A DNA stretch of 64,000 bases from Pseudomonas sp. N040. Lineage in GTDB: Bacteria; Pseudomonadota; Gammaproteobacteria; Pseudomonadales; Pseudomonadaceae. Below, one piece after another: positions 2,713 through 27,121 of the stretch. The stretch lies in the NCBI RefSeq assembly GCF_015637705.1, contig NZ_JADOBE010000001.1:186001-250000 (forward strand), in the 5' to 3' direction. Below the pieces are notes generated by a model. That model had not been told where the DNA came from. It did no database searches and saw only the letters and a list, made by a program, of their open reading frames with translations. The stretch's first letter is position 1. Every line of letters begins with the position of its first letter. Position numbers and translations under genes: made by a program.

Positions 2713-3414
2713 TCATGCCTGCACAACAGGGAAACAGGCATCGCCCCAGAGGGTATTCGGATTGTCCAGCATGATCTCGATCACCAACGGCACCAACTTG
2801 CCCAGAAAGCGCGCGCAATCGCGAAGCTGGTCTCGGTTTACCTGACTGCTCCAAGTGGCCCCGCCATGCATCATCTGGTTGCGCAGCACGTAGATGCGGT
2901 TGAACACCACCGCAAGGACTTCGGCCGGGTTGCCACCGGCCAAAGCCATGCTGGCTGACCGCTTGCCTGTATCGAAACGGCTCTGCCAATCTTCCGCGCT
3001 GATCCGGCCGCGCTGGAACTCCCAGAAGCTGTGAAACACGAAGGGATTATCGAGCAGTACACGGATACTGCCGGAAAACTCGTTCCAGACCAGTTCACTG
3101 ATCCGGGACTGAGTGTCCAGATCGCAAAGCTTTTTCAGAAACGCTTTGAAGGTCTCTTGCTCAGACAATCGCGAGTTCTCGTCGATCTCTGTGGCATAGG
3201 CAGCATTGAAGGCAATCCAGAGAAAGATGAAGCGACTGTCGTCATCTTCACTGCTTTCCGCCTTACCCAGCCAACTCAGGGCGCGGTGCACTCGCAACGC
3301 CAGATTTGGGGGATGGTTTTCCCTTTCTTTCCGTTGACGCGCCTTCAGTTCTTCATGTCTCACAGCGTGCTCTTTATCTGGATGCCAGATGATAGGGTTT
3401 GGTGGCGAAGTCAA
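2713..3414 (-). CDS. HEPN-domain protein
   Basis: A 233-aa all-helical, soluble protein. It contains Arg178-N-Q-M-M-His183, matching the RxxxxH motif of HEPN domains, which in many defence and toxin proteins forms an RNase active site. The N-terminal block (RVHRALSWLGKAE, then FIFLWIAFNAAYA) matches a recurrent HEPN-like family found near mobile DNA. No ATG fits the start; the frame begins at TTG 3414 with only a weak Shine-Dalgarno, and open sequence continues a little further upstream, so the gene may have lost its native start. No antitoxin gene is adjacent. RNase activity is inferred from the motif only. Confidence 0.6.
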   Translation of the reverse strand: MTSPPNPIIWHPDKEHAVRHEELKARQRKERENHPPNLALRVHRALSWLGKAESSEDDDSRFIFLWIAFNAAYATEIDENSRLSEQETFKAFLKKLCDLDTQSRISELVWNEFSGSIRVLLDNPFVFHSFWEFQRGRISAEDWQSRFDTGKRSASMALAGGNPAEVLAVVFNRIYVLRNQMMHGGATWSSQVNRDQLRDCARFLGKLVPLVIEIMLDNPNTLWGDACFPVVQA

Positions 3415-3929
3415 ACGGTGACTAGCAATAGCAGCATAGCCTGCAGGACTCTCAGTAAACTCTGACCGAGATCATTACTTACAGGGGCGACTCTTTTTTC
3501 TTAAAACCGCCTGATTTTGGGCACTCACTCTCCGCTATTAGGGTATTGGTTCAAAGGAGAGTTCTAAGTCTGGCCTTTTTCACACCCGCCCCATTACCGC
3601 CGCTGCATTCGCATCGATGATCGCCACCCCAAATACCAAATCGCTATCGAGCAAATGGCCTGCCCTGCTCGCGCCCTTGCGGCGCCAAAGATAAAGCATC
3701 CAAGGTGCAATAAAAACGGGACAGTTTTTTCGACTTCCATGTGGAGTCCGGAATTAGTTGGCCAAAAAAATAACTCGTTTTCTCATGCCATTTTGGGTTG
3801 AGAACTTTCCCGCCACACCAAAGAATAAGCCTGTCATTTGACCTAGACATCAGCAGTCAACCGATATACCAGCGCCTAAAGCGATCTAACAATAAGCAAC
3901 GCTGGCACCAAGCGATCATGAGGTTATGC
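3415..3929. other. gap before the HTH-repeat gene, holding the first copy of the recombinase-site repeat
   Basis: No convincing gene. The stretch contains the first 25-bp repeat (3516-3540) related to the site in front of the recombinase genes. Short frames here have poor protein composition. Confidence 0.5.
3516..3540 (+). repeat. candidate recombination-site repeat, copy 1
   Basis: TTTGGGCACT, four variable bases, then CTCCGCTATTA. The same 25-bp arrangement recurs at 4789-4813 in direct orientation. Here the second palindrome arm is degenerate (AAAGGAGAG at 3553-3561 instead of AATAGCGGAG), as expected if this is a hybrid end formed by recombination. Function is inferred. Confidence 0.6.
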
Positions 3930-4487
3930 ATGTTTAACGACTGGAAACTATTGGCTGGAAAAATAAGTGACCGTGAGGTATCCAAGCGGTTTGGCATTGG
4001 GTCGAGCACCGTACGGCGTTACCGACTTCGTCATGACATTACTACCTACGACCCTCGAAATATTGATATCCCAGAGGCACTAAGAGAGCAACTGGGGACA
4101 AGGAGCAATTACCAACTGGCTCAGGATTTCAAAATCCCGACCACCCACATTGCAGACTTAAGAGCCGAAATTGGCGTTCCGGAGCCGAAAGTATTCAGGG
4201 CTCCGTTTAAGCCGCTGGAAGAGGGTATCTGGACCGCCGAAACGCTCGCCCTGTTAGGAACGATGCCTGATCCAGCGCTGGCCGACCGCTTAGGCGTCAG
4301 CAGCTTTCCAGTGAAGAAAAAGCGACATGAACTTGGAGTCGCGCCATATCAGACTTCTTATCCTGAGATTACAGCTGAGCTTGCCGCAGAGTTTGGCATA
4401 AGCTCTGACAGAGCCCTTGCCACGCGCTTAGGGGTATCCGCAAGCTTCATTCGCCGGGCTCGATTGAAGTGGTCGGAAAACCATTAA
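3930..4487 (+). CDS. DNA-binding protein built of tandem helix-turn-helix repeats
   Basis: From the ATG at 3930 (GAGG six bases upstream) the product is 185 aa; ATG 3918 or TTG 3798 would add 4 or 44 residues of less conserved sequence. The protein is four repeats of a short HTH unit of the pattern LLG-x3-D-x-x-LAxRLGVS-x3-VRRxRxxLGV, at about residues 6-35, 50-80, 97-130 and 140-180. Repeated minimal HTH units like these bind DNA, possibly an extended or repeated site. It is the only gene between the two direct repeats at 3516 and 4789, next to the recombinase module, so it may be cargo or a directionality or regulatory factor of that module. Its partner and target are unknown. Confidence 0.6.
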   Translation: MFNDWKLLAGKISDREVSKRFGIGSSTVRRYRLRHDITTYDPRNIDIPEALREQLGTRSNYQLAQDFKIPTTHIADLRAEIGVPEPKVFRAPFKPLEEGIWTAETLALLGTMPDPALADRLGVSSFPVKKKRHELGVAPYQTSYPEITAELAAEFGISSDRALATRLGVSASFIRRARLKWSENH

Positions 4488-4841
4488 GCTTTCTGCGACT
4501 ACGTCCCGCGATACCCTGTGTAATTACCCCTGCATGCCCATTGATTGCGCCCAACTTGACCAATGGTAGAAAAGAAGTGCTACCAGCAACTCACAGCCCG
4601 CTCTTGTTTGGAGTTGAACGACTTACCGCTTAATAGCGGCATTGAAGGGAACAAAAACGCAGAATTGGACAAAAATAATCTCGGCCTGTTGTTCGTCGGA
4701 AATTATCGAGGCAGTTTTTTACTAAGCCACATCACTCATTCGCGCGATCGGTTAAAAAAAATTCATTTTTCTGAAATTTTTGCTCGAATTTGGGCACTGC
4801 AGCTCCGCTATTAAGATAAATCACTCAATAGCGGAGTACAT
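4488..4841. other. AT-rich non-coding stretch in front of the recombinase genes
   Basis: A small frame at 4563-4814 has no ribosome site or protein character. The stretch carries a short palindrome CCGCT-TAAT-AGCGG (4626-4639), a compact version of the motif found in the main site, and then the full site at 4789-4836. Multiple related half-sites suggest binding positions for the recombinase or its accessory protein. Confidence 0.45.
4789..4836 (+). repeat. candidate attachment/core site with perfect inverted arms
   Basis: The 25-bp repeat (TTTGGGCACT-N4-CTCCGCTATTA, 4789-4813) continues into a perfect inverted repeat: CTCCGCTATT at 4803-4812 and AATAGCGGAG at 4827-4836, with 14 bp between. 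Inverted arms around a short spacer are the usual form of a tyrosine-recombinase core site. The right arm also carries the GGAG that serves as ribosome-binding site for the gene at 4842, so it could double as an operator. Both roles are inferred. Confidence 0.6.
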
Positions 4842-5312
4842 ATGCTGGAAATAAAGTTGGCGGAGATTCGGGGGATACATCCAAATTTCGCCCGGGTTGA
4901 GCGGGAGCTTGACCTTGCCCCCATTGAAATTCCTGAGCGTGCATTGATACCCCCATCAATGGCGCAGCTCATAAATAGAACATACCCGCTGGTGGTCAGC
5001 AGGCATCCAGATTGTTTCTGCATCGGGCAAACAACAATTTATCGTTGGCTGACTGCTTACGCTGCCCCGGATAGCCCGGTCCGATGCATTGTATTGCCAG
5101 GAGTAATCGCGGAAACCACGCTACATCAATTGGTGCTGATCGAGCGTCTGGTTGCCCCTGCGCTGGCGAGGATTACGCCACAACAGATTCGCGATTTGTA
5201 CCGGCACATCAAGGATGCACCAGATTGTTGGCCTCATACATACCAAAGCCACGCACATCTAGCGCGCCTGGTTGGCGTTAAGCCTCTCAAGGGGCGGGGG
5301 GGTGAAGAATGA
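4842..5312 (+). CDS. small first protein of the three-gene recombinase module
   Basis: A 156-aa protein starting six bases after the palindrome at 4803-4836, with GGAG from its right arm as Shine-Dalgarno. I recognise no domain. A TTIYRWLTAY segment near residue 66 could be a recognition helix, which would fit an accessory DNA-binding role. Its last codons overlap the next gene by ATGA (5309-5312). Small first genes coupled to large integrase-like genes are seen in three-gene mobile elements such as Tn554-type transposons and the gamma-mobile-trio systems; membership in either is not shown here. Confidence 0.55.
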   Translation: MLEIKLAEIRGIHPNFARVERELDLAPIEIPERALIPPSMAQLINRTYPLVVSRHPDCFCIGQTTIYRWLTAYAAPDSPVRCIVLPGVIAETTLHQLVLIERLVAPALARITPQQIRDLYRHIKDAPDCWPHTYQSHAHLARLVGVKPLKGRGGEE

Positions 5313-7753
5313 TTACGCAGGATGCTCTTCTTCAGCTGGCCACAGAGCGGGGGCAGTCTTCTCAGGTTATCTCGAAAATTCTGGAAGCCATAGGCGCCCA
5401 TCCTGATCTGATCGATTTGCCTCGCATTATCACTGGATTTTTGAGGGTTCTGCTGGCGGCTGAGACTAACAGTCCGATTCGCATCGGAGATTGTGATCCA
5501 GCAGTATGGCGTGAGCAGTGTAAGTGGTTGATTGCGCTGCGTGATGACCCGTCTGCATTAAGCATGCTGGGCGAGCAGTTCTGGTTCGGACATCCTGCCC
5601 CAGTGCGTAACCCGGTGTTAAACCGCGGAGTTACGCGGTTCGGATTTCCCTACGCGGCGCTCTGGTTTAGACCCCGCAATACTGAACTTGTTCTGGATTA
5701 TGAGCGGCTACTGGCACAGATTCTGGCAGCTACGAAACTGCAACTTCCGGATCAACTAGTCACACAGCGGTATGCGGTATTTCTGGATCTGCGCCGTTTA
5801 TGCGAGTTGAACTCTTGCTCGATTCCAGCCGAGCTGGAAATCAGCGGAACGACAGAGGAGTTCATAGTAGCCTGCCAAGATTTTTCACCTTCGGAGTCAA
5901 TGTCTGAAAATGCCGAGCTTTTTGCTTCAATGGCGCGCTTGGTTCGGTATCACCATGGAGAAATCCCACCCACCAGATCGGGTGGTGGTGCTCGAGGCCG
6001 AAATTTGAGCCCAGATCAGCCGGAGCTGACACACCCCGTCAGCGAGGATCCGCTGGGTTTCGTATTTGATGATCCAGATGATCCAGACCAATTACCCGGC
6101 TATTACAACATCTTCACCGAGCCGTCGGACTCCTATGACGGAGAGCTAGCGCCAGATGAGCTGAGTCCGTCGGCCGAGATGTGGGTTCTGGATGACAATG
6201 ACTGCGATCGACCCTATGTTGCAGACAAGCTAAGCCAGCAGGGCATAGAGGCGCATATCGTCCGGGGTCGGCAAATGCCGCCCTTTTCCTATAGCCAGTT
6301 CTCCCTACTTGAACTGCGAGACTTGCTATTCGGTGCCAGCAACTTGTTTGAGTTGTGCCAAGAAGAGCTCCGTTTTGCGAAGGAACCATCCCGGACTCAG
6401 CTCAGGATGGAGTCCATTGTGTTTTTGCATATTGGGCTATGGCTTGGACAGCCGACCACACAGATCGTGCAGATGCTGCGCGTTGATCACGCGGATGACT
6501 GTACTGAGGCTTTGGTCCTAGTCCGAGGCGATCCCGCCGCCTTCAGTTTAATTGTTCGCCGTCCTGACTTGGCGGGGGATACTCGCCTGCAACCGTTGAG
6601 AGAATTCCGTCAGCACCAAACTCGAATCCTTCTGCCCGATCTGGCCGGCAGTGCAAGGCTAGTGGATATTCTTTTTACGAGTTTTCCTAGATCTTCCAAC
6701 CAGATATTTCAATTTCAGACCGCGGAATTGGAAGCGGAGGCCAAGGCGGTTTTGGCCATGCTCGGGAAAGGGAACAGCCGCTTCACGCTGACTAAGATCC
6801 GTAACTACGTCTTTAACCAGATCGTGTCTGACACCCATGATATAGCCGTTTCATCTATGTTGTCCGGGGTGCGTGTACCGTCCGCCCAGACACCGTGCTA
6901 TTACCTGCAAGTTGATACTAACCATCTGACAAACATCTATGCGCAATCGCTTGTCCGAGTGCTGCGTAAAGTCTATGCCTGCTGTGGGTTGGCATATGAG
7001 CCAGCATTGATACAGACCTTCCAGCACGGTGCAGTGGGGGCAAACCACTGTCTGCTGCACGAAACTATTGCTGCGAATGTGAAGGCATTGGCTGGAGTTC
7101 TCAGAAAACAGCCTACAGGCCGTCTCACTGACATGCTGACTTGGCACAATCACTACAGTCTTTGGGTTGTTCAGATGTTCATGTTCTTGACAGGGTGTCG
7201 GGCGATTCGCAATCCGCTTAGGCATGTCGCCGAGTTTGATCCGATGCTGTGCATGGGAGCTATGTCTGACAAGGACTCGGATGATCGACATATGAGCAGA
7301 CTAATCTGCATGCCGCCAATGCTTAAGCGGCAACTGGAGCATTACACAGAGCATTGTTGTGCAATCACAAAACAACTGACTGGTTATTTGCCTCAGGACG
7401 ATAGCGATGGCAGGTGGTCTCGAGGATTTTTCCTCATACGCGGGGGTGGGGGTATTCGCCGCGAGGAAATTAGGCCACTGACAATTCGAAAACAAATGGA
7501 GTTGGTTGTCGGATATACCCCGCACCCTATCAATTCCTTTCGCAAATTCATCCGTACTGAACTTGCTGAGCGTGATTGCCCTGCCGAAGTAATGGCTGCA
7601 TTTATGGGGCACTGGTTGCGTGGCGAGGAGCCTATGGACTCCTTTTCGTCGTTTTGTCCATCGGCTTACGCCGATTGTCTCAACAAATGGATTTCTAGAT
7701 TGCTGACCAAGATGGGCTGGTCAGCAATCAGCAGTCCTTGGAGTATGAAATGA
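5309..7753 (+). CDS. large tyrosine-recombinase-like protein lacking the catalytic tyrosine
   Basis: 814 aa. The C-terminal quarter follows the tyrosine-recombinase layout: an Arg I motif TGCRAIRN (Arg631), an NSFRKF box with Arg745 where HxxR is usual (Asn in place of His), and MGHW (His768). Where the nucleophilic tyrosine should sit about ten residues later there is SFSSF (Phe779, Phe782). It is therefore probably a non-catalytic partner that binds DNA or assembles the synapse. Residues 190-280 are acidic and low in complexity. The gene overlaps both neighbours by ATGA (5309-5312 and 7750-7753), so the three products are made together. Confidence 0.65.
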   Translation: MITQDALLQLATERGQSSQVISKILEAIGAHPDLIDLPRIITGFLRVLLAAETNSPIRIGDCDPAVWREQCKWLIALRDDPSALSMLGEQFWFGHPAPVRNPVLNRGVTRFGFPYAALWFRPRNTELVLDYERLLAQILAATKLQLPDQLVTQRYAVFLDLRRLCELNSCSIPAELEISGTTEEFIVACQDFSPSESMSENAELFASMARLVRYHHGEIPPTRSGGGARGRNLSPDQPELTHPVSEDPLGFVFDDPDDPDQLPGYYNIFTEPSDSYDGELAPDELSPSAEMWVLDDNDCDRPYVADKLSQQGIEAHIVRGRQMPPFSYSQFSLLELRDLLFGASNLFELCQEELRFAKEPSRTQLRMESIVFLHIGLWLGQPTTQIVQMLRVDHADDCTEALVLVRGDPAAFSLIVRRPDLAGDTRLQPLREFRQHQTRILLPDLAGSARLVDILFTSFPRSSNQIFQFQTAELEAEAKAVLAMLGKGNSRFTLTKIRNYVFNQIVSDTHDIAVSSMLSGVRVPSAQTPCYYLQVDTNHLTNIYAQSLVRVLRKVYACCGLAYEPALIQTFQHGAVGANHCLLHETIAANVKALAGVLRKQPTGRLTDMLTWHNHYSLWVVQMFMFLTGCRAIRNPLRHVAEFDPMLCMGAMSDKDSDDRHMSRLICMPPMLKRQLEHYTEHCCAITKQLTGYLPQDDSDGRWSRGFFLIRGGGGIRREEIRPLTIRKQMELVVGYTPHPINSFRKFIRTELAERDCPAEVMAAFMGHWLRGEEPMDSFSSFCPSAYADCLNKWISRLLTKMGWSAISSPWSMK

Positions 7754-10700
7754 GCGTGATTCAACTGAGCGAGCAGCAGGTGGAAACTCTCTGGTCACCA
7801 GTTGATCACGAGCCGACTTGGAGTCAGCCGGTTCGGGTGCGTCTCAGAGAGATAGCCGAGCAATCAAATACCCAGTTCGGACAGTGGTTGCTTGGAAAGA
7901 CTGCCATGCAAGAAGTGCGCGTCGAGCATGTTCGCGAACTCGAAAGCCATCTTGGCATGGATCATACGATGAGGAACATGCTCCGAAGTGTCACTCATCG
8001 CCTTAGGAAGCGGATACCCAGATTTCCTCTTGCAGGCATTGCCATAGCAGTCAAACGTGCAGCCAACCCTATCAATCCCGATACCTACACAGCTTCCCGT
8101 ATTGAGCGCAGTCACCGGTTGCTCTTGGCGCTTAAGGATGGATTGAAGCTCGATCTGGACTCAGTAGATGCTGAAACTCGCATTGGCTTGCTACTTCTCA
8201 ATGCAGCTTACAGTGGTGGACTCCTGGACATAGCCCAACTCAATGCCTTGCTCAAGGTGTCTCTGGAAAGCATTGAATGGTTAGCGGGAATTCCTGAAAT
8301 CCGTCTCTCACTTTCTATCCAAGGGGTGGGTGATGCCGAGTATCGGCAGTGGTTTCCAGATCCTGCCTCCTTGGCTCTGCTGATTCGGTGTGCGGATGAT
8401 GTTAAAACACTGAATGCTCAAGCGCTGGGTAAAGATGGAAAACTCAAGTGCATCCAGGCGCTTTTGAGCGCGTCGGGTATGCCGGTACATGACCTTCCCT
8501 GCAGTCTCACTGAGTTACTGGATCTACTTCGAATGCAAATGCAATTGCGACTTCCGCAGTTGCTGGTGAATTTCGCCTGTCGCAAATCGTTCGTATCTCA
8601 ATCGCTTCGTCCCTCATCCTGGGGTTACCTGTTCGGCGATGCCTTTCAGGAAGATCCAGCCCAGGTCTATGGAGATGACATTCGTTCTGATACAGCAAAG
8701 GATTCCGATGCTCCCGTCTGGGTGTTGGAGCTGTGCCAACGGGTTCGAGCAGGGGAATCTATAGAGCCCTCGCTTCAAAGCGAAACTCAAACAGAGCTTG
8801 CCGCTCTCTTTCGGGGGTGGATCGCATTCATGCTCAGCGGAGCATCCGCATACGGTCATCAGGTCGGTCGCAAAACGATTGCCCGGTATGCTCGACTTCT
8901 TGGCCCTGCGCTGGCATCGCAACTGGATGGCGTGAGCATTTTTGAGCTTGAATCCGATTCACTGGAAATTGTCTATGAGATGGCCCTAGAGGCTCAAAGC
9001 ACAGATGGGAAACGGCGGACTCTGGCCAAAGCTGTATACGAATTCCATACATTCCTGCAGCGCCGTTATAGCTACCCCCCAATAAGCCCTTACTCTCTGC
9101 TTGGCATAGGTAAAGGTTTGACTCGAGTGGATGCACACGTACTCAGCGAGGAGCAGTATCAAGCAGTGCTGCAGGCTCTAGGAAATTGCGGGTTGGAGTT
9201 GCGGACACCTAGGCTGGTCACTGCCGCCCGCTTGTTCATGATTCTAGGTTTCAGGTTGGGGTTAAGAAGGAGTGAAGCGCTTAAACTCCGCCTCAGCGAT
9301 ATTCATTTTCCTGAGCTATCTCTTGATGCGAGCGCGCGTATTCTAAAGCGGCATCCGAACATGCGCAGGCTATCCAGAGATGAATTGGCCTGGCTGGATC
9401 TTCCAGTCGATCTGCTCGTTCGCCCCCATGCCCAGCGCAATGTTAAGAGCCAGAATGCAGTCCGGCGTCTACCGCTCCACGTACTGCTTGAGCCAGATGA
9501 GCTTGAGCTACTCAGAGAGTGGTATAGGCAGCGGGAGGAGGAAGCCGAAAGCCCGGCGTCAGAGTACCTATTCTGCATCCCTCAGCTTAGAACACAGTGG
9601 ATAAGTGAGAGCTACCTGCTCCCTGCGCTACACGCCTGCATGCGTGAAGTCACTGGTTCTGATAGCGTTCATTACCATCATCTGCGCCATTCCTGCGCAA
9701 CTTGGCTTCTGCTCAAGTTGATGGTGACGCTTAACGAGCTATCTCCTGGTCTGATCCTCCGCGATCTGCCCTTGACTACAAGTTGGCTGGAAAATGGCCA
9801 AAAACTAAGCCATGAGATGTTCGCTCGGAACGGCGGCCCCACGAGGCGAATTGTGCACATGGTTAGCGCGATTCTTGGCCATGGCAGCCCGAAAACTACG
9901 TTGTTGCACTACATTCACAGCCTTCCTCTAATAATGGCGATGGCTTGGCAGTGGAACCCAAAATGTTGGCTGTTTAGCGCAAGCAACGTGACTTCAATTG
10001 CCAATGTAAGCCAGCCGACAAAGCCCACTCCCCCTGCTGGTGTGCCTGCTGAGTGTCAGCGGATGATCGAGATAATTGGCCGTATCAAACTGCTGAAAGC
10101 GCGGAAGCAGGCGCGAAAAAAGGTTAGGGCTCGCCCTATCGAACGGCAGCCGTCTAACTGGGCAATTGAGAGAATCGCAATGATTGAATCAATGCTCGCT
10201 TATGTCTCATACGGCGAACAAAGTAATCGCCCCGTGAATCTGGAGTGGCTCGAATTTTCTGCCGAGAGCCGCGCATTAATGCTAGAGCGTGCTCGTCATA
10301 TTCGAGATTTGCCCGATGCGTGCGGCCGCAAGCGTGGGGGGCGAAAGCACAGAATGCTAACTTCCGAGGATGACAGCAGTCGATCTTACGTTACCCTGAG
10401 ACCAATGCCGCCTAAACATGGTGGCCGTGAAGCCGTAGCCCCTTATGCTCAAAAGCTGTATGAACTACTTGATGGCCCAAAGCACGAAAGAGCTATCCGC
10501 GTAATCGATTACTTTGTGGAGAACAGTTGGGCTACTGATACATGTCTGCGTTTTAGGCGAGGTGATGATGAAAAGGCCGCCAGAGACTACCTGTGGTTAC
10601 TTGAGGCTATCGGTATCCCTGCTCGATCTATTGAGCTAGTCATTTACGACAATCAGACACCCACACAGACAAAATCCTACTGGCGTACGGTGATTCGAAA

Positions 10701-10875
10701 AGCTCGTTGTCCAATCGCAAAACACGAGCCCTTTGGGTCTGACCATAATGGCTATCCTCTGGGCATCCGAGCAAGCCTGAAGGTTGCTAGTGAGGATCGG
10801 AATAACCATCATTCAAATGCTGCGCTGCGCTACCTTTTCCTGATGGCATCTATTGATTGGCATTTTCGCGGTTGA
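7750..10875 (+). CDS. large site-specific tyrosine recombinase (third gene of the module)
   Basis: 1041 aa from the ATG at 7750, which overlaps the previous stop and has GGAG six bases upstream (a TTG at 7738 is a weaker alternative). The catalytic set is complete: Arg506 in GLRRSE, His643-x-x-Arg646 in HHLRHSCAT, His711 in LGHGSPKTT and Tyr721 in LLHYIH. The remaining 320 residues after the catalytic domain, including a basic KARKQARKK stretch near 785, are unusual in length for an integrase. It should cut and join DNA, with the palindromic site at 4803-4836 as the obvious candidate substrate. It is the only catalytically complete recombinase in the window. Confidence 0.8.
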   Translation: MSVIQLSEQQVETLWSPVDHEPTWSQPVRVRLREIAEQSNTQFGQWLLGKTAMQEVRVEHVRELESHLGMDHTMRNMLRSVTHRLRKRIPRFPLAGIAIAVKRAANPINPDTYTASRIERSHRLLLALKDGLKLDLDSVDAETRIGLLLLNAAYSGGLLDIAQLNALLKVSLESIEWLAGIPEIRLSLSIQGVGDAEYRQWFPDPASLALLIRCADDVKTLNAQALGKDGKLKCIQALLSASGMPVHDLPCSLTELLDLLRMQMQLRLPQLLVNFACRKSFVSQSLRPSSWGYLFGDAFQEDPAQVYGDDIRSDTAKDSDAPVWVLELCQRVRAGESIEPSLQSETQTELAALFRGWIAFMLSGASAYGHQVGRKTIARYARLLGPALASQLDGVSIFELESDSLEIVYEMALEAQSTDGKRRTLAKAVYEFHTFLQRRYSYPPISPYSLLGIGKGLTRVDAHVLSEEQYQAVLQALGNCGLELRTPRLVTAARLFMILGFRLGLRRSEALKLRLSDIHFPELSLDASARILKRHPNMRRLSRDELAWLDLPVDLLVRPHAQRNVKSQNAVRRLPLHVLLEPDELELLREWYRQREEEAESPASEYLFCIPQLRTQWISESYLLPALHACMREVTGSDSVHYHHLRHSCATWLLLKLMVTLNELSPGLILRDLPLTTSWLENGQKLSHEMFARNGGPTRRIVHMVSAILGHGSPKTTLLHYIHSLPLIMAMAWQWNPKCWLFSASNVTSIANVSQPTKPTPPAGVPAECQRMIEIIGRIKLLKARKQARKKVRARPIERQPSNWAIERIAMIESMLAYVSYGEQSNRPVNLEWLEFSAESRALMLERARHIRDLPDACGRKRGGRKHRMLTSEDDSSRSYVTLRPMPPKHGGREAVAPYAQKLYELLDGPKHERAIRVIDYFVENSWATDTCLRFRRGDDEKAARDYLWLLEAIGIPARSIELVIYDNQTPTQTKSYWRTVIRKARCPIAKHEPFGSDHNGYPLGIRASLKVASEDRNNHHSNAALRYLFLMASIDWHFRG

Positions 10876-11314
10876 TCTGATTCGGAGTGCGTTTTAACTT
10901 CCGGCACCCATGTGAAATGGCGTAAAGGGCATGCCGTTGAGGGTAGTGCTGCGGACACCAAACTACTGAACGGGCGTCATTGCGGAATATTGGTGCGGGC
11001 GTATGCGCGCATAGCGTGGTCGTATTAATTGAGAGCTTGGTTATTCCGTGTGCCTCATCGCACTGATAGCCGCCGGCAAGACTTCAGACCACCGGAATGC
11101 CACGGGCAGCACGGCGCGAAAAATCAGTTCGTCATGGCGTAGAAGCTGCTCCGTGGTTAGGTTCATTCATCGGGTCATTGATGTGTGTCAAGCAAGCGAG
11201 GCAGCCTGACACAACAGCAAACAAAAACAGGTGGCAGATATTTTTGCATTCTTGTTCTGACACGCAAAAGTCTGAAGCAGCATATGGCCTCCAAACCAAT
11301 GAGAGGCCGCTGCT
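10876..11314. other. non-coding gap after the recombinase genes
   Basis: No supported gene. It contains a TGTGTCA/TGACACA inverted pair (11184-11190 and 11207-11213, 16 bp apart) upstream of the gene at 11315, a possible operator. No copy of the 4803-4836 site was seen here, so the right end of the recombinase element is not evident. Confidence 0.4.
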
Positions 11315-11848
11315 ATGCACCACACGCCCACAACATTCGAAACAGCCGTCATGGACATGCTCTGCACGGTTTACGCCGTCGAGGCCAGTTACCGGACGGG
11401 CGGGAAACCGAAGCAATCCTTACTGCTGTCATCACAGGGCAAAGAGGAAGGCCGAAGGTCCTGGATGTCACATGAATGCCCACAAGAGCTGATTCAGCGG
11501 CTCCAGCTGGAGTGCCAAAGCAGGGGCCTGTTTGCCCACGCACTGACCTCGCCGGCCAAGCGCCCGCTCATGACGACCCTCAAAAATGTGATTTTCACCT
11601 ACAAGCACCGCCGCATAGGCAGGGCCATATTTGCACACCGGTCGGCAAAGGACATTGTGGCTTGCGCCGATGGCTATGGGCAGCTATATGCCGACGTCAC
11701 CCGGCAACTGACCACTCTGTCGCTCACCATAGGGGCTGGGCTTGGGGAGATTCGTCGTGTTGAGAAGTACGCGAAGTATGTTCGACTCAGCGCCAAGCAT
11801 GAGCTCGTCGCCAGGGCGCTAGAGGATCAACTCCATGAGATGGATTGA
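11315..11848 (+). CDS. unknown 177-aa protein, first of a coupled pair
   Basis: I do not recognise this protein. It is soluble, helical and basic, with a KHRRIGRAIFAHRSAKDIVACADGYGQ-like central stretch and no membrane segment. The Shine-Dalgarno is weak. Its end overlaps the next gene by 14 bp in another frame, so translation is coupled. Position between the recombinase module and a large defence-type helicase suggests element cargo. Confidence 0.5.
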   Translation: MHHTPTTFETAVMDMLCTVYAVEASYRTGGKPKQSLLLSSQGKEEGRRSWMSHECPQELIQRLQLECQSRGLFAHALTSPAKRPLMTTLKNVIFTYKHRRIGRAIFAHRSAKDIVACADGYGQLYADVTRQLTTLSLTIGAGLGEIRRVEKYAKYVRLSAKHELVARALEDQLHEMD

Positions 11849-12281
11849 GATTGATACGGATACTCGCTACCTCGAAGATGCGGACCTGAGCTATGAGATG
11901 TGCATGGCGCACCGAGCGAGAGCCTGGCCACCGGCGGTCAATATCTTCGAGCGCCGGCTAGCTTTTAATCTGCGCGAACAATGCCGGTTAGATCTGGACC
12001 TAGATACGTTCATCCGGGTCATCGGGAAGTCCGCTCAGGACATGAGCGCCTGTGTGACACTGGAGGTAAGCTTGATCAATGGGCTGATTCAGGCGCGGGC
12101 CGTGGCCATCGATCGAAACGTGATGCCACCGATTACGGCTGACGTCGCGGGCAGGCTCGCATTTGCTTTGAGATGGTACGGAATGCGGGAACCCGTATTT
12201 AGGGTGACTGTTTCTCCGCAGAATTTGTTCTGGATACTGCCCCTGCAGTGTTTCAAAAGCCGGTCGGAATGTAGCAGATGA
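11835..12281 (+). CDS. unknown 148-aa protein, second of a coupled pair, C-terminus doubtful
   Basis: Starts inside the end of the 177-aa gene. The first 120 residues have normal protein character, without a recognised domain. After about residue 122 (RWYGMREP) the translation turns into low-quality sequence that overlaps an opposite-strand frame reading well from 12414 to 12253. The gene may thus be truncated or fused to unrelated DNA at about 12200. Confidence 0.45.
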   Translation: MRWIEIDTDTRYLEDADLSYEMCMAHRARAWPPAVNIFERRLAFNLREQCRLDLDLDTFIRVIGKSAQDMSACVTLEVSLINGLIQARAVAIDRNVMPPITADVAGRLAFALRWYGMREPVFRVTVSPQNLFWILPLQCFKSRSECSR

Positions 12282-12414
12282 CATCGCGGCGAGCATGAAG
12301 TAGCAGCTTGTCGACTGCTTCATAAAAGTCGATGGCTGCTTTGCAGGTCGCCGGGTGAAAGTGCTGGAACGGCTCAGGGATCGAGTTTATTTCGACGTTG
12401 CCAAGAGTAATGGA
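12253..12414 (-). pseudogene. short protein-like frame downstream of the helicase gene
   Basis: On the minus strand the frame encodes about 53 residues of good composition (FHPATCKAAIDFYEAVDK, then LLLHARRDVICY) ending at TGA 12253-12255. It lacks a normal start (ATT at 12414, with a stop just upstream; a GTG start in another frame would need a frameshift). It is best read as the end of a decayed gene. No family recognised. Confidence 0.3.
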
Positions 12415-12431
12415 TCACTCACCAATAATGC

Positions 12432-15400
12432 CTACACAGACACGGGTCTCAGAACGCCATTGACATAAACCAAGCGCCCACTAGCCGCTAGCTTCTGTAT
12501 ACGCGTTTCTAGAACTCCTGATATTTTTGTTGTAGCACGACCAAAGCCAAGCAAGCCTAAAGCCCCGGACACAGCCTCCTCACTCCTCATAGAGAACCCC
12601 AAAGCGACCGTTTCAAGCAGTGCCATGTCTATCTCCTCAGGAGCAACTAGCTCAATTCTTCGTTCACTAGCGTCCAGCTGTGCGCGACTCCTGATTGGTA
12701 CAGTCTGATCTTTGTTGGAGTAGGCGAATCCGTCGCGATGTTGGAAATGATTCTGCCGACAACCTAAGCGTATTGCCTCAGCTACTGCCGTAATGACCCT
12801 AGACCCGGCACGACTAATTCCAAATGCATCCATCAGTCGGCGCGTGATATCGCTCTCATGCACCGGCGACTCAATTTCCACGACTGCTTTAATCATTTGA
12901 GTCAGCTTTTCAGGCTGGATTTGATGCAGCTGAATGGTCATATCCAGTGGCGGACTCAAACGCACCTTCACATATGGGCGACTCGAACTTGGAAGCTTTT
13001 CCTCCGCTGGCTGCCCGCGCACTATCTCATGCGGTTGTACCGGCACTACTTCAGGCACACAAACGTCTAGCTGCTCAGTAAGGCGCTTTCGTGCCGCTTC
13101 GATGGCCGCAACTGCTCTGGTAATTTCTTGTTGAGGATTTCGGAACCAGTCCGTACTCCAGATACGATGGAAGTTCCAACCAAGGCCTTCCAAAACGCCC
13201 TGACGTAAACGATCTCGATCACGTGCTGAACGCGAACTGTGATACGCGGCACCATCGCATTCGATGGCAAGTACATAACGCCCAGGATAATCGGGATCCT
13301 TAACAGCGATATCTATGAAGTAACCCGCCGTACCCACCTGCGCTTCAACTACATAGTTACGCTCACGTAAGGCTTCCATTACCTCAAGCTCAAACGGTGA
13401 GTCCGCCGGCTTCCCGGTTTCGGTAGCCACCTCTAACTTGCCGGTTTCGGCAAATTTTAGGAAGTTACGCAGAGCCCTTACACCGTGACTTGCATCAGCT
13501 TCAAGCTCTAGCTCATCAGCCCTGAAGTTACAGAACACTCGCATGGCCATTTTCGCACGAGTGATCAGTACGTTAAGTCGACGATGTCCGCCTTTTGAGT
13601 TCAACGGACCGAAGTTCTTGGCGATACGGCCAGATTCGTTACGACCGTATCCGACGCTGATAAAAATCACATCGCGCTCATCACCTTGGATGTTTTCAAG
13701 GTTTTTGGTGAAAAATGGTTCGCTGTTATCGCGCGTGAAAAATCCCTCAGCCTCCGGCATTTTTCTGCGAAGTAACTCGACTTCGACTTGAATTAAATCG
13801 CGCTGCGCCACACTAAATGCGGCAACCCCTAATGAAAGTTCGGGTGTGCGCACTGCGTGTTCCATCACCGCTCGTGCGACAGCCTTAGCTTCCTCTTTAT
13901 TGGTACGGGTACGCCCACGATCGAAAAGAGCCGTAGGTAAATATTCAAAACTCACGCCTGTGGCATGGGGGTGCTGGCCGGCGGAAGGGAACACCACCAG
14001 TTTGCTATCGTAAAATTCAACGTTTGAAACGGCGATCAAAGACTCGTGGCGGCTTCGGTAGTGCCAACGCAGATAGCGTTCCTGACTACCCGCTGCTTTA
14101 AACATCGCCAATATACTTTCGATGTCGCTAGTTGCGCTGTCTTCATCATCTATCTCGACTTCACGGCTGAAAAAGTCCGTGGGCGGCATCTGGCGCGTAT
14201 CGCCGACCACTACCACCTGTTTGCCACGCATGATCGCGCCAAAGGCATCTACTGCCTTAACTTGGGACGCTTCGTCGAAAACCACTACATCAAACTCCAC
14301 CTTCCCTGGCGGGAGAAAGTTGGCAATCGACATAGGGCTCATCATAAAGACAGGCTTGATCTGCTGAATTGCGCGGCCAGCCTTCTCAATCAACTGTCGA
14401 ATCGGCAAGTGCCGCCGCTTCTTGTTTAGCTCGGCCCGCAAAATTGCCATTTCGCCCGGCTGATTTATATTCGGCATGCACTCCCAAACCTGCTTAGCCA
14501 AACTAGTCTGCGCATGCCGTAATGAGGCCAGGTCAAGCTGACGGAAACGGCTGATTTGATGCTCATGCTTAATTCGATCAAATTGCTGCAAGGCGGGCTT
14601 GTCTGCATATACACGCTGTACCAAGCCGGAGTACCAAGACAAATCTAGAATATCGGTCAATACCTCAGGCTCATCACTTGTTGCGGCCAGCTGCAGCAAT
14701 TCATCAAGACGCTCTGCACGTAACTGCCCTGCAAGTACATTCCATCGCGACATCTGATACAGCGCTGTCAGATTATCCACCCACTGTTGTAAGCGGGCTC
14801 CAAGCGCCTCTAGACCCAATGCGCGCACGCAGTCCTTGTCTTTCTGCATCCCGGTAACATCAAGCGAGCCCCGCAATGCCTTGTCCAATCCAGCCACATG
14901 CTGCTCGATATCCGTGACGGCTTCACCCAGACCACTGGCATCGGAATGGCCCGCTAAGAAGCTAATAATGCCTTGTGGGATTTGGCCATTACCTAGGTCG
15001 TCATGCAGCCGAATAACCCAACTGCTTAAACGCTCCAGAACAGCCCAATCAGATTTCTGCCGCTGCCACTGAGCGCCGAATAGGGCACTGCCCAGCGGCT
15101 CATGCTGGTCGTAGACTTTTTTGCCTTGTTGGTATGCCAACACACCATCAACAAGGGCTAACTGCTCCCTATTTTCTTTGGGTAGCACCTCGCGAGCCAA
15201 ACCCTGCAAGCGAGATCGCGCGGCACGGAATCGGGAGGAGAAAATTCGCCACCATTTGTCACCGTAGGCCAGCAAACTCTGGCGAACGTCGAGTAAGTCC
15301 TGATCCCAGGCAGCATCAATCAGCTGGCGATCATGCTTCTCGCGGCACGCTGACATTAGCTGGCCAGCCTCAAGTAACTCGCGGATAACATCGCGCCGCG

Positions 15401-17216
15401 ACTGCCACTCACCAGTCGACAACTGAACCCCGTCCAACCTCGGAGCTTCGGCGGCCCTGCGAGCAGCGCGGCAGATCACATCAACGTCCGGTAACGATGC
15501 CGGAAGGGTCAGCATCAATCTCTCGGATAAAGCACGGGCGGCAGACTGCAAAGCAGTCAAGTGTGATACCGCCAGCTGTAACGCTTCCGCCGCTGTACTT
15601 TGTTCAATGGGTGAGAAATAAGTGCGCTCAGTTCCCCAAAACACGCTTTGATCAGGTCTCCCCATCTCTTGAAGATGCAACACCAGCTCTTTAATCAACT
15701 CGCGTTGTTTTAATTGCTCGGCATGGCTCCAGCTGGCCATGGGAGTAAAGGACAAGACGGGTAATCCTGGGCGAGTACGCTTTAACTTCAAGTAACTACC
15801 CAGCACCTCAACAAACGGTAAGCCGCTGGCGCCAGCAGACGAGCTCACCGCCTCGCAATAAAGGTTCAGAGCATCTTGTAGCTCTTTAAGGCTTTCCAGA
15901 TCCTCAACACCCACCTTAGTGAGCGGCCGCCCCTGTTCAAGGGTACGAGCTAATTCTTTAAGTACTGATTGTTTTGTGGATTTGTGGCTGTGCAGTTCAA
16001 ACACCGCATCGCCCAAATGGCACTCATCTAGGCGGCGCTTAACTACCTCAAGTGCAGCCATTTTTTCGGCAACAAACAGTACCGTCTTCTTTTGCCCAAT
16101 CAACTCCGCAATCACGTTAGTAATGGTCTGTGATTTGCCCGTGCCAGGAGGCCCTTGAATCACCAAGTTCGAACCTGCTCGGATTTCAAGAATCGCCTCG
16201 GTTTGGCTGCTGTCGGCGTCTTTAACAAAACGCACATCGCCGGGGTTAATCACCGAATCGATATTCACATCTTCAGGATAAGCGCTGCGCTGATCACCGA
16301 AACCACTACCGAGTAAACGCTTCATCACTGCGTGTTCACCAGGCTGCTTATCTTCTGGCCAACTCTTCGGATCAAGGTCCTTAAACATCAAAAACTTGCC
16401 GAACGAGAAGAAGCCAAGCGCAGCCTCGTTCGCGGCAATCTTCCAGCGCTTTTGCTTGCTGATCACATCAGCCACATTGGCAAAATACGCCGTTAATGCT
16501 TCGCTCTGTTCAGAGTCGGTAACGGCCTCAAGGCTGCACGTAGACATATCCAAGCCGAAATCAGTTTTAAGCTTGGCTACCAGCGATAAATTTTCAACCA
16601 GATCATCACCGGAGTACTTCAAGGCGAAGCCGTCTTTAGCCCCACTTCGCTCAAGATTTACCGGCAGCAATACCAAGGGGGCTTTACGCAAGCTCTCCGA
16701 ACTGTCGGCTTCGTACCAATGCAAAAAGCCCAGCGCCAGGAACAAGGTATTAACACCCTGCTCTTCAATGTATCCCTTCGCTTCGGTATGAATTTTGAGC
16801 AGTTGCAGAAACAGTCGTTCATCGTCAAGCGCGGTCTGCAAACGACTGTCGAGGTGGCGCCGCGCTTTACTAGCCGTTGAATCTGCATCGTCCTCGGCGT
16901 TGCAAGACCAATCCAACGTATCCAGTTCGTGCAGCAACTGCTCGTCACTGGCCGAGTCGCCATCCTCGTTGCCATCCGGATTGATTGACTTAGCCAGATC
17001 AGCCAGTTTTTGCCGTGCCATCGAGGCAAAGGACATCGCCTTTTCTTGGCGATAGAGGATATTGAAAACCTCTTCCGACAGCTCATCCACCACAGTTAAG
17101 GTTTTGGCTGTCTTGCGGAAGTTGAGCATGTTGTTACGAAGCCCGATATCCAAAAGCTCTTTACGGCTGGTCTGTAGCTTCTGGCTAACACCTGAACTCA
17201 TAGGAACACTCACCAT
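12432..17216 (-). CDS. DUF4011 / SF1 helicase / Vsr-like nuclease / DUF3320 defence protein (Hhe-type)
   Basis: 1594 aa. Order: DUF4011 N-terminus (LLDIGLRNNMLNF, residues 21-33), SF1 helicase with Walker A GPPGTGKS (355-362), helicase motif DEAS near 980 with GDTRQMPP shortly after, C-terminal helicase motif LNVLITRAK, then a Vsr/DUF559-like nuclease around 1290-1350 (LAIECDGAAYHSS, DRDRLRQ, WNFHRIWSTDWF) and a DUF3320-like tail near 1440-1500. This architecture was reported as the single-gene phage-defence system Hhe (DUF4011-helicase-Vsr). All key motifs look intact. ATG 17201 is an alternative start. A 46-aa gene lies 102 bp upstream on the same strand and may share its transcript. Confidence 0.8.
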   Translation of the reverse strand: MVSVPMSSGVSQKLQTSRKELLDIGLRNNMLNFRKTAKTLTVVDELSEEVFNILYRQEKAMSFASMARQKLADLAKSINPDGNEDGDSASDEQLLHELDTLDWSCNAEDDADSTASKARRHLDSRLQTALDDERLFLQLLKIHTEAKGYIEEQGVNTLFLALGFLHWYEADSSESLRKAPLVLLPVNLERSGAKDGFALKYSGDDLVENLSLVAKLKTDFGLDMSTCSLEAVTDSEQSEALTAYFANVADVISKQKRWKIAANEAALGFFSFGKFLMFKDLDPKSWPEDKQPGEHAVMKRLLGSGFGDQRSAYPEDVNIDSVINPGDVRFVKDADSSQTEAILEIRAGSNLVIQGPPGTGKSQTITNVIAELIGQKKTVLFVAEKMAALEVVKRRLDECHLGDAVFELHSHKSTKQSVLKELARTLEQGRPLTKVGVEDLESLKELQDALNLYCEAVSSSAGASGLPFVEVLGSYLKLKRTRPGLPVLSFTPMASWSHAEQLKQRELIKELVLHLQEMGRPDQSVFWGTERTYFSPIEQSTAAEALQLAVSHLTALQSAARALSERLMLTLPASLPDVDVICRAARRAAEAPRLDGVQLSTGEWQSRRDVIRELLEAGQLMSACREKHDRQLIDAAWDQDLLDVRQSLLAYGDKWWRIFSSRFRAARSRLQGLAREVLPKENREQLALVDGVLAYQQGKKVYDQHEPLGSALFGAQWQRQKSDWAVLERLSSWVIRLHDDLGNGQIPQGIISFLAGHSDASGLGEAVTDIEQHVAGLDKALRGSLDVTGMQKDKDCVRALGLEALGARLQQWVDNLTALYQMSRWNVLAGQLRAERLDELLQLAATSDEPEVLTDILDLSWYSGLVQRVYADKPALQQFDRIKHEHQISRFRQLDLASLRHAQTSLAKQVWECMPNINQPGEMAILRAELNKKRRHLPIRQLIEKAGRAIQQIKPVFMMSPMSIANFLPPGKVEFDVVVFDEASQVKAVDAFGAIMRGKQVVVVGDTRQMPPTDFFSREVEIDDEDSATSDIESILAMFKAAGSQERYLRWHYRSRHESLIAVSNVEFYDSKLVVFPSAGQHPHATGVSFEYLPTALFDRGRTRTNKEEAKAVARAVMEHAVRTPELSLGVAAFSVAQRDLIQVEVELLRRKMPEAEGFFTRDNSEPFFTKNLENIQGDERDVIFISVGYGRNESGRIAKNFGPLNSKGGHRRLNVLITRAKMAMRVFCNFRADELELEADASHGVRALRNFLKFAETGKLEVATETGKPADSPFELEVMEALRERNYVVEAQVGTAGYFIDIAVKDPDYPGRYVLAIECDGAAYHSSRSARDRDRLRQGVLEGLGWNFHRIWSTDWFRNPQQEITRAVAAIEAARKRLTEQLDVCVPEVVPVQPHEIVRGQPAEEKLPSSSRPYVKVRLSPPLDMTIQLHQIQPEKLTQMIKAVVEIESPVHESDITRRLMDAFGISRAGSRVITAVAEAIRLGCRQNHFQHRDGFAYSNKDQTVPIRSRAQLDASERRIELVAPEEIDMALLETVALGFSMRSEEAVSGALGLLGFGRATTKISGVLETRIQKLAASGRLVYVNGVLRPVSV

Positions 17217-22629: not shown

Positions 22630-22909
22630 ATTGACGCCGAACAAATCGTTGTAGTGGCCATTTTGCCTGCCTCCCATTTTTGCTATCGCAACACAGGCGT
22701 CGCCCTCAAATGCCGCTGAACTCAGCAGTTATCGACCACCTATATCGGGTCGAGAGCGGTCCATTGCGACCGCCTCAAACCGGCCAAAAGCAGCCTCTGG
22801 TGATAGAGTGCCGTCAGCTACAAGTCGAACCTAGAAGTGAACACCGAACTAGGTCGATTCACTCAGTAGTTCGGCGTCCGCAGCACCTATCCATAATGTA
22901 GGTACCTAA

Positions 22910-23440
22910 ATGCCCTTCACGCCATTTCACATGGGTGCTGCTCTCTTTGTTAAGCCTGGGCTTAACAGACGATTCAGCCTGATAACCTTCGGCATTGCTC
23001 AGGTAGCAATGGATATTGAGCCTGGAATCGGAATGTTTGCTGGGGCAGAAGCGCTTCATGGTCCGTCACACACGATTGGGGGCGCGCTGGTCATTGCGCT
23101 CCTCGTAACGCTAGTTGCGCCCAGTATTTGCAATTTCTTGCTGCGACGGTGGAACAAGGAGGTCATGCACCACAAGCTGCCTTGGCTGCAAGAGTCTTTA
23201 CCAGTGTCAAAGGTGGCAGTGATTGTTGGCGCCCTCATAGGCACCTCCAGTCATATTTTGCTCGACAGCTTGATGCACCATGACATCAGGCCTTTTTCGC
23301 CAATTTCGGATGCGAATCCGTTCCTGGGCCTAATGACGCACGACGGGGTTTATCAGCTTTGCGCGATTTTGGGTGTATTGGGTGCCATTGCTTGGCTTGG
23401 GATGAAATGGATAAACCGGGATCAAATGAATCATGAATGA
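22910..23440 (+). CDS. membrane-bound metal-dependent hydrolase (YdjM/DUF457-like)
   Basis: 176 aa with AGGT seven bases before the ATG. It opens MPFTPFHMGAA and contains HGPSHTIGGAL and SSHILLDSLMHHDIRPFSP, the His and Asp pattern of the YdjM-like membrane hydrolase family, with about four hydrophobic helices. In Enterobacteria YdjM is SOS-regulated; no LexA box was identified here. Its substrate is unknown. The next gene overlaps its end by 8 bp, so the two form an operon. Confidence 0.6.
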   Translation: MPFTPFHMGAALFVKPGLNRRFSLITFGIAQVAMDIEPGIGMFAGAEALHGPSHTIGGALVIALLVTLVAPSICNFLLRRWNKEVMHHKLPWLQESLPVSKVAVIVGALIGTSSHILLDSLMHHDIRPFSPISDANPFLGLMTHDGVYQLCAILGVLGAIAWLGMKWINRDQMNHE

Positions 23441-24278: not shown

Positions 24279-24335
24279 TACCGCATTGCCCTCCGAAGGC
24301 AGGGGTCGTGGGTTCGAATCCCGCCTGGTGCGCCA
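24279..24335 (+). pseudogene. 3' part of a tRNA-Arg(CCG) gene (attachment-site remnant)
   Basis: An anticodon arm TTGCC-CTCCGAA-GGCAG (anticodon CCG), variable region, T arm with GGTTCGAATCC, and the 3' acceptor strand CTGGTGC-G-CCA are present. The 5' acceptor strand (expected GCACCAG) and D arm are missing; unrelated sequence precedes TACCGC. This is what integration into the 3' end of a tRNA gene leaves at the far end of an island, so the intact tRNA should lie to the left, outside the window. Confidence 0.75.
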
Positions 24336-27080: not shown

Positions 27081-27121
27081 AGGTCGTGGGTTCGAATCCC
27101 GCCTGGTGCCATCAACATCAA

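Follow-up and report, generated by a model that had tools for sequence, protein, structure and literature searches.

The 64,000-nucleotide stretch of Pseudomonas sp. N040 analysed here (the window; positions 186,001-250,000 of contig NZ_JADOBE010000001.1, its own genome coded G000) contains three overlapping genes, A, B and C, which form a module conserved in gene set and order. It is reasonable to suggest, tentatively and with confidence a little short of even, that A-B-C is a second recombination module of tRNA-linked defence islands that also carry a conventional integrase, D. The three open reading frames (ORFs; 4842-5312, 5309-7753 and 7750-10875) encode proteins of 156, 814 and 1041 residues and lie as the preliminary description had placed them, with ATGA overlaps at both the A-B and B-C joints; the length of C is counted from its ATG, the listed ORF beginning four codons upstream at TTG.

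In single-sequence searches, 12 of the 398 genomes searched from the phylum had a relative of B and 14 of the 390 from the order a relative of C, the window's own genome included in both counts. With profiles, C adjoined B in 13/13 loci chosen by B, and B adjoined C in 9/10 loci chosen by C, the sole exception (L055) being a C fragment. The preliminary description had allowed that the homologues might never occur together; they do co-occur, B and C standing side by side in all 23 loci of the first set (window included), and ten later loci from one genus also hold both. Of the later loci, a contig end truncates L086, leaving C alone, and L107, leaving B alone, and L091 gave no match; a B match at a contig end in G206 was excluded. 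Gene order was constant, L049 carrying a B-C fusion and L057 a rearranged pair, and an NTGA start-stop overlap was found at the B-C joint in 20/31 loci, near-duplicates counted. The adjacency of B and C and this overlap recur beyond what chance would give. Distances of B and C correlated closely (r 0.976 over 16 loci, and 0.71 over seven loci within one genus), and the DNA to the left of the trio differed between loci. Within the genus of the window, B occurred in 1/59 genomes, the window's own only, and in 2/11 of another draw, own included. The possibility had been raised earlier that the three are ancient core genes with no insertion boundary near 4803: they are not ancient core genes of the genus, yet no boundary was found at 4803. 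Searches with B over genome contigs, with B and C over plasmids, and with C over phages and viral contigs gave no leads. In G126, two divergent trios (L044 and L045, on contig C4) lie about 33 kb apart with their A ends facing and D between them, a composite-like arrangement.

Gene C matches Phage_integrase (PF00589, E 7.6e-12) and has the R, K, H-x-x-R, H and Y residues that, judged from sequence, place it in the tyrosine recombinase superfamily. R506, K566, R646, H711 and Y721 are invariant in 19/19 aligned relatives, and H643 is nearly so. The earlier statement that only the third protein has the full site holds, with the residues as numbered and invariant in relatives, and the accompanying phrase "three recombinase genes" has to be revised, A not being a recombinase by its predicted fold and B being incomplete. 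No profile evidence was obtained for a further recombinase fold in the N-terminal half of C. Just after C, at 10903-10932, lies an inverted 29-nt fragment that matches, at 96.6%, the initial 10 codons of a DUF4184/YdjM-like gene (22910); the same area also holds a 24-nt match to DNA upstream of that gene (source stretch 22863-22938), and the fragment is possibly a recombination junction.

The model of B (predicted local distance difference test, pLDDT, 77.0) comprises two recombinase-like folds, at 326-527 and about 576-801. In VIA comparisons, the first fold matched XerH (5jk0, Z 11.8), Cre (Z about 10) and topoisomerase IB (Z 8-9.7), and the second matched an integrase (3nkh, Z 13.3, 576-769), SSV1 integrase (11.3, 579-801) and lambda Int (9.8), the top row being Xer 4a8e (Z 14.8, listed range 283-804). 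By hhalign, the second fold aligned with the catalytic domain of D (probability 78.7%, E 1.7e-5) and weakly with C (probability 20% in one comparison and 2.1% in another). The first fold rests on structure prediction, since hhalign gave it no sequence support (probability 0.3 and 1.1). Residues were counted in 28 sequences, a set that omits L049, L057, L060, L083, L088 and L090 by length and retains the near-duplicate pairs L040/L078 and L080/L092. R631, K655, N742, R745, G767 and H768 of the second fold are invariant in 28/28, Asn742 occupying the place of the catalytic His, and column 779, the hhalign partner of the Tyr of D, holds Tyr in 13, Phe in 8 (including the window), His in 3 and other residues in 4. 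In the first fold, Tyr532 is present in 28/28 and is the sole column there conserved at 90% or above. The nucleophiles of related enzymes are Y324 in Cre, Y344 in XerH, Y723 in human topoisomerase I and Y274 in variola topoisomerase; extrapolation of the aligned ranges to these positions places the expected Tyr at about 529-534, with chain 1a31 pointing near 523. No single domain of B holds all tyrosine-recombinase residues in the 28 sequences; by prediction, B has two recombinase folds in tandem, with the catalytic residues divided between them. An unlikely but specific extension is a composite B, in which Tyr532 of the first fold would join the Arg631-Lys655-Arg745-His768 pocket of the second in one shared active site. 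Flp cleaves in trans, and a composite B would be an intramolecular version of this; if so, B and C would be two active non-identical subunits under a ParB-type clamp. Literature searches, with most subscription journals outside their scope, returned no precedent among the matches listed for such a machine or for split or double catalytic domains.

Gene A is predicted to adopt the fold of the ParB N-terminal domain/sulfiredoxin. Its AlphaFold2 model (pLDDT 82.7, from a 21-sequence alignment) had ParB 6t1f as the top Foldseek match (E 3.8e-4, prob 1.0), with prob 0.97-1.0 to ParB, Noc and KorB, and a VIA Z of 9.1 (2.8 A over 90 residues) against ParB 7o0n; the best matches among solved structures were ParB, Noc, KorB, PadC and sulfiredoxin. 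No sequence-profile match was found in Pfam or PDB. An A-like ORF (156-415 aa) lies 5' of B in 15/23 loci, and phmmer (E <= 1) links 13 of the 15 to one or more of the others. No A-like ORF was listed in G190, L043, L053, L057 or L058; in L049, the ORF present appears to be unrelated, and L059 and L060 are cut at B. A and B had no significant Pfam, NCBIfam or PADLOC family match.

The trio is internal to an island of about 57.7 kb, because tRNA-Arg(CCG) and a copy of its 3' half bound it (Table 1). The GC content is 0.48-0.56 from position 1 to about 25 kb of the window and mostly 0.59-0.66 beyond 28 kb. As the preliminary description proposed, the trio sits amid defence cargo, which includes type I restriction genes, MkoA/B-like genes (which we take to be Mokosh), a VWA-PP2C-kinase cluster and a 1594-aa helicase-nuclease (12432-17216). 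The latter had been called an Hhe-type helicase; PADLOC PDC-S37 (2012 bits, against 796 for Hhe) and NCBIfam ProA (1431.5, just below the cut-off of 1500) fit it better. The HEPN protein proposed earlier, presumably the minus-strand ORF at 2713-3414, had no Pfam match. tRNA-Arg(CCG) was found in 15 of 25 trio regions of 13-104 kb, from seven genera, and these 15 are not independent because eight belong to one genus. The 25 regions omit L041, L043, L055, L056, L058, L059, L060, L088, L091, L092 and L107, count the two-trio genome G126 once, and include G395b and G784, which are 99% identical. A second tRNA copy encloses the trio in 3/15 tRNA-Arg regions (G000, G190 and G500), and a tRNA-Trp copy (72 bp, 98.6%) does so in G330b, the enclosing 3' copies of these four spanning 47-72 bp; A of G330a begins 176 bp after the end of a tRNA-Val copy. 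The trio is thus contained in tRNA-bounded islands in some genomes.

Integrase D was present in 21/25 trio regions, in 17 of them no more than 4 kb from the C end, a count in which nine of the 25 regions came from a D-containing query (12/16 without them). Across 390 genomes of the order, D occurred in 11/14 trio-positive vs 31/376 trio-negative genomes (Fisher P 1.8e-9); the association counts genomes rather than islands, the D of G620 being on another contig, and the single-sequence trio search may miss divergent trios among the trio-negative genomes. In the 59 genomes of the genus, D and the trio were both found only in G000. D therefore also occurs outside trio islands, although the two are strongly linked. 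Within one genus (seven loci), distances of the trio and of D were uncorrelated (r -0.03 for B and -0.27 for C); the D proteins of G535 and G500 are 87% identical and the C proteins 25%. Since the trio and D reassort within that one genus, the trio may be read as a cassette exchanged within a D-defined class of islands. In loci outside that genus, identities are 15-29% for C (44% for G000/G190) and 46-87% for D, and part of the mismatch could be due to the trio by itself evolving faster.

A perfect inverted repeat precedes A (Table 1), whose ATG begins at the sixth base after it, in agreement with the earlier reading. It had also been taken for a recombination site or element end. As an att site it was rejected as unproven, since neither a copy of it at an island end nor a direct repeat beside it was found. 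The start signals of A fall within it, its right arm containing the Shine-Dalgarno GGAG, and the ends of the island lie at the tRNA copies. As an RNA hairpin it has a dG of -19 kcal/mol (z -3.4). The palindrome is also less remarkable than had been implied, because the window holds 15 perfect inverted repeats (arms of at least 10, spacers 0-20), where 20 first-order Markov controls average 1.45. Palindromes upstream of trios had a mean score of 9.0 (n=25, G764 omitted) vs 7.4 in controls (n=369), an excess that composition or terminators could explain. The stretches 3513-3545 and 4786-4818 form a 33-nt direct repeat (79% identical, blastn E 0.006), the palindrome arm recurs at 3530, upstream of a helix-turn-helix (HTH) gene, and motif copies flank that gene. 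The HTH protein is 50% identical over 188 aa to L037:3991-4875 (minus strand), beside the G190 trio, where two 18-bp palindromes with TCCGC/GCGGA half-sites precede B. Given the repeated motif, the HTH gene, the overlap with the ribosome-binding site and the G190 palindromes, 3513-4836 may be a regulatory or complex-assembly array, and we infer that the palindrome is an operator or part of a binding array rather than a crossover site. In a 104-kb motif scan, the top ranks of the window copies are no evidence, because the matrix was built from those three copies; the scan gave no similar site in G190.

Table 1. Coordinates of the trio, the island ends and associated features (window positions, except those marked C1, which lie upstream of the window)
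Feature	Position	Strand	Remarks
Gene A	4842..5312	+	156 aa, predicted ParB-N/sulfiredoxin fold
Gene B	5309..7753	+	814 aa, two tandem tyrosine-recombinase folds predicted (326-527, about 576-801)
Gene C	7750..10875	+	1041 aa tyrosine recombinase by sequence, large N- and C-terminal extensions
tRNA-Arg(CCG)	C1:152580-152656		ARAGORN; about 38 kb left of the trio
Integrase D	C1:153522-154721		399 aa; Arm-DNA-bind_2 + Phage_integrase
Distal attachment repeat	24287..24335	+	copy of the tRNA-Arg(CCG) 3' half, 95.9% over 49 bp
Inverted repeat CTCCGCTATT-N14-AATAGCGGAG	4803..4836	.	perfect, 10-bp arms, 14-bp spacer
First motif copy TTTGGGCAC-N6-CTCCGCTATTA	3513..3545	+	direct repeat of 4786-4818
Second direct motif copy	4786..4818	+	includes the palindrome left arm
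Diverged inverted motif copy	4629..4655	-	74% complementary to 4789-4815, common CCGCTATTAAG
229-aa protein, several HTH repeats	3798..4487	+	Pfam Phage_CI_repr 7.9e-8, HTH_23 1.3e-6

An additional 22-28-bp copy of the tRNA-Arg 3' half lies at 27082-27109, 2.8 kb past the main attR; the inverted repeat AAGGGCCTGG follows each tRNA copy (24344 and 27120), and this further copy is probably a second, older island end or a tandem-island remnant. A 51-nt tandem repeat (2249-2529) lies inside the minus-strand ORF 2249-2989, and 2252-2491 has an 80% match on another contig (G000:C2:131541-131780). L055 (G620:C8) has an att-flanked tRNA-Arg island of 8.8 kb (8263-17054) with only the C-terminal part of C, a decayed trio whose remnant lies 145 bp from the tRNA. 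An extra tRNA-Arg 5'-half copy occurs just upstream of the intact gene at L034:6477-6525, and likewise in G190. A sigma-54 activator (504 aa; L034:9217-10731 and L037:12898-14379, the G190 copy 89% identical) stands directly 5' of a type I restriction gene in both examined tRNA-Arg islands of the genus, and could possibly regulate the restriction cluster. Two candidate boundaries were rejected: the sharp end at L040:15850, where many matches stop, lies close to the stop codon of a small Cro-like ORF and shows no clean crossover, and the fliC locus of G806, considered as an empty site, has a partly deleted neighbouring operon with restriction-modification cargo and no boundary.

According to the above results, D, with its arm-binding domain, would most likely insert the island at the 3' end of tRNA-Arg(CCG), and A-B-C could then be a second, heteromeric tyrosine-recombinase machine. 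C would supply the complete active site, B, with two recombinase folds in one chain, would pair with C on DNA, and the ParB-like A may bind or clamp DNA, perhaps at the upstream repeats, to assemble or license the complex. The outcome would likely be excision, circularisation or cassette exchange within the island. This B-C complex, its DNA targets and its reaction are inferred from anatomy and conservation. Several points, together with the limits on the D counts given above, weigh against such a second module. Neither excision nor a circle nor exchange was seen, and the comparisons yielded no clean empty site of the trio; mobility may not need the trio, should D be what inserts the island. 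No second tRNA copy turned up in the other 12 tRNA-Arg regions, so that their ends are unproven. Trio and D distances do correlate over 16 loci (0.86/0.85) and over the nine loci outside the one genus of seven loci (0.54/0.57), a pattern equally compatible with common descent and with exchange. The ten best Foldseek rows for B are all recombinases, but with weak E values (best 0.019). The A of the window and that of L052 matched no other A by phmmer (E <= 1), identities to the window's A in a forced alignment are 9-22%, and the window's A is counted as a trio member on position, this alignment and fold. In G190, B is not directly preceded by an A, and the motif of the window was not found there.

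The trio could instead be island cargo, serving anti-phage defence, exclusion of rival islands or ParB-like maintenance with DNA-binding recombinase folds, a reading that we consider rather unlikely. Its position among defence genes, the fast divergence of its proteins relative to D, as in arms races, and the predicted ParB fold of A would all suit this role, and recombinase folds can reportedly turn to regulation, MrpR being said to be a recombinase-fold regulator. Against it, C retains its catalytic residues, including Tyr721, across its relatives, and A, B and C of the window had no match to a PADLOC model, no specific NCBIfam match and no defence match in either collection.

It is also unlikely, in our estimate, that the trio is, as the preliminary description suggested, an autonomous mobile element that moves itself and its cargo, tRNA islands being merely where it accumulates. 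Such an element would share the logic of GInt and of strand-biased circularizing integrative elements (SEs), whose multi-recombinase operons are required for recombination according to the available portions of their descriptions (PMC5385486, PMC10214605). Reassortment of the trio and D within one genus, the 4/25 regions without D in the DNA covered, the variable DNA left of the trio and the possible junction fragment at 10903-10932 are consistent with it. The strong tie to D and to one tRNA gene would be unexpected for an autonomous element, however; neither a boundary at 4803 nor direct repeats on either side of the trio could be detected, and the 59 genomes of the genus contained no filled or empty site sharing trio DNA.

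That the trio is a divergent member of gamma-mobile-trio (GMT), recombinase-in-trio (RIT), Tn554, GInt or SE systems is improbable: it has in common with them the gene overlaps, the cargo-rich islands and a recombinase-fold protein that, like Tfp and GinC, lacks a conserved nucleophile, but gene order, number and make-up set it apart. The preliminary description had likened its layout to GMT, Tn554 and RIT; a conserved gene set was confirmed, and the kinship to GMT failed on sequence and that to RIT on make-up. GMTs consist of three genes, with recombinases and defence cargo, all in common with the trio, and differ from it in gene order and in their 908-aa partner. A true GMT was located with the NCBIfam GmtY model in 1/185 genomes (G968), in the order 441-908-200 aa, the 908-aa and 200-aa proteins presumably being GmtZ and GmtX, and hhalign of the B and C profiles against the 908-aa protein gave probabilities of 0.6 and 0.1. 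The GmtY model NF040693 (recomb_GmtY, 441 positions) matched none of the window's three trio proteins at E <= 1, and B or C of the other loci scanned had no Gmt match in NCBIfam; one 45-position GmtY match in G000, below the cut-off, lies on another contig. Family NF040694 proved to be an unrelated model. On these sequence comparisons, the trio is not a GMT. Tn554 encodes TnpA, TnpB and TnpC, that is, two recombinase-fold proteins and a small accessory protein, as in the trio; its small protein is last instead of first and its recombinases are smaller.

The remaining systems are compared by description, from the portions of the papers available. RIT elements, which occur mainly in alpha- and betaproteobacteria, likewise have three overlapping genes, but each of RitA, RitB and RitC is a recombinase with a putative catalytic motif (PMC3414803, PMC8138268), against one complete recombinase in the trio. 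The GInt operon ginABCD encodes three recombinase-like proteins, with GinC incomplete, and a terminal small helix-loop-helix protein, and lies at the 5' end of its island, with att repeats of 10-17 nt at protein genes (PMC5385486). It resembles the trio as a multi-recombinase operon with variable cargo, one incomplete recombinase and a small protein; here, in contrast, two recombinase-fold genes follow a small gene with a predicted ParB fold, 38 kb inside a tRNA-flanked island. SEs carry intA-tfp-intB-srap with two active recombinases, Tfp being a recombinase fold without catalytic residues and Srap a coiled coil with no ParB match reported, and their Tfp and Srap homologues are reported solely in Gammaproteobacteria (PMC10214605). 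Coupled genes, a recombinase-fold protein without the full site beside active recombinase(s), and island cargo are shared with the trio, but SEs have four genes rather than three with one complete recombinase, and neither the SE nor the GInt description, as available, has a ParB-like partner. Literature searches of the same scope on GMT, on such trios and on ParB with recombinases gave nothing like A-B-C among the matches listed.

One way in which phage-defence genes pass between bacteria is on islands with multiple recombinases. The role of recombinase-fold proteins without the full site, such as Tfp and GinC, is left unexplained in the available GInt and SE descriptions, and this family offers a testable case, combining a ParB-like partner with a subunit that, to judge from its sequence, would have two folds whose catalytic residues complement each other. 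Furthermore, A-B-C together with D could serve as a marker set for finding a class of tRNA-linked defence islands.

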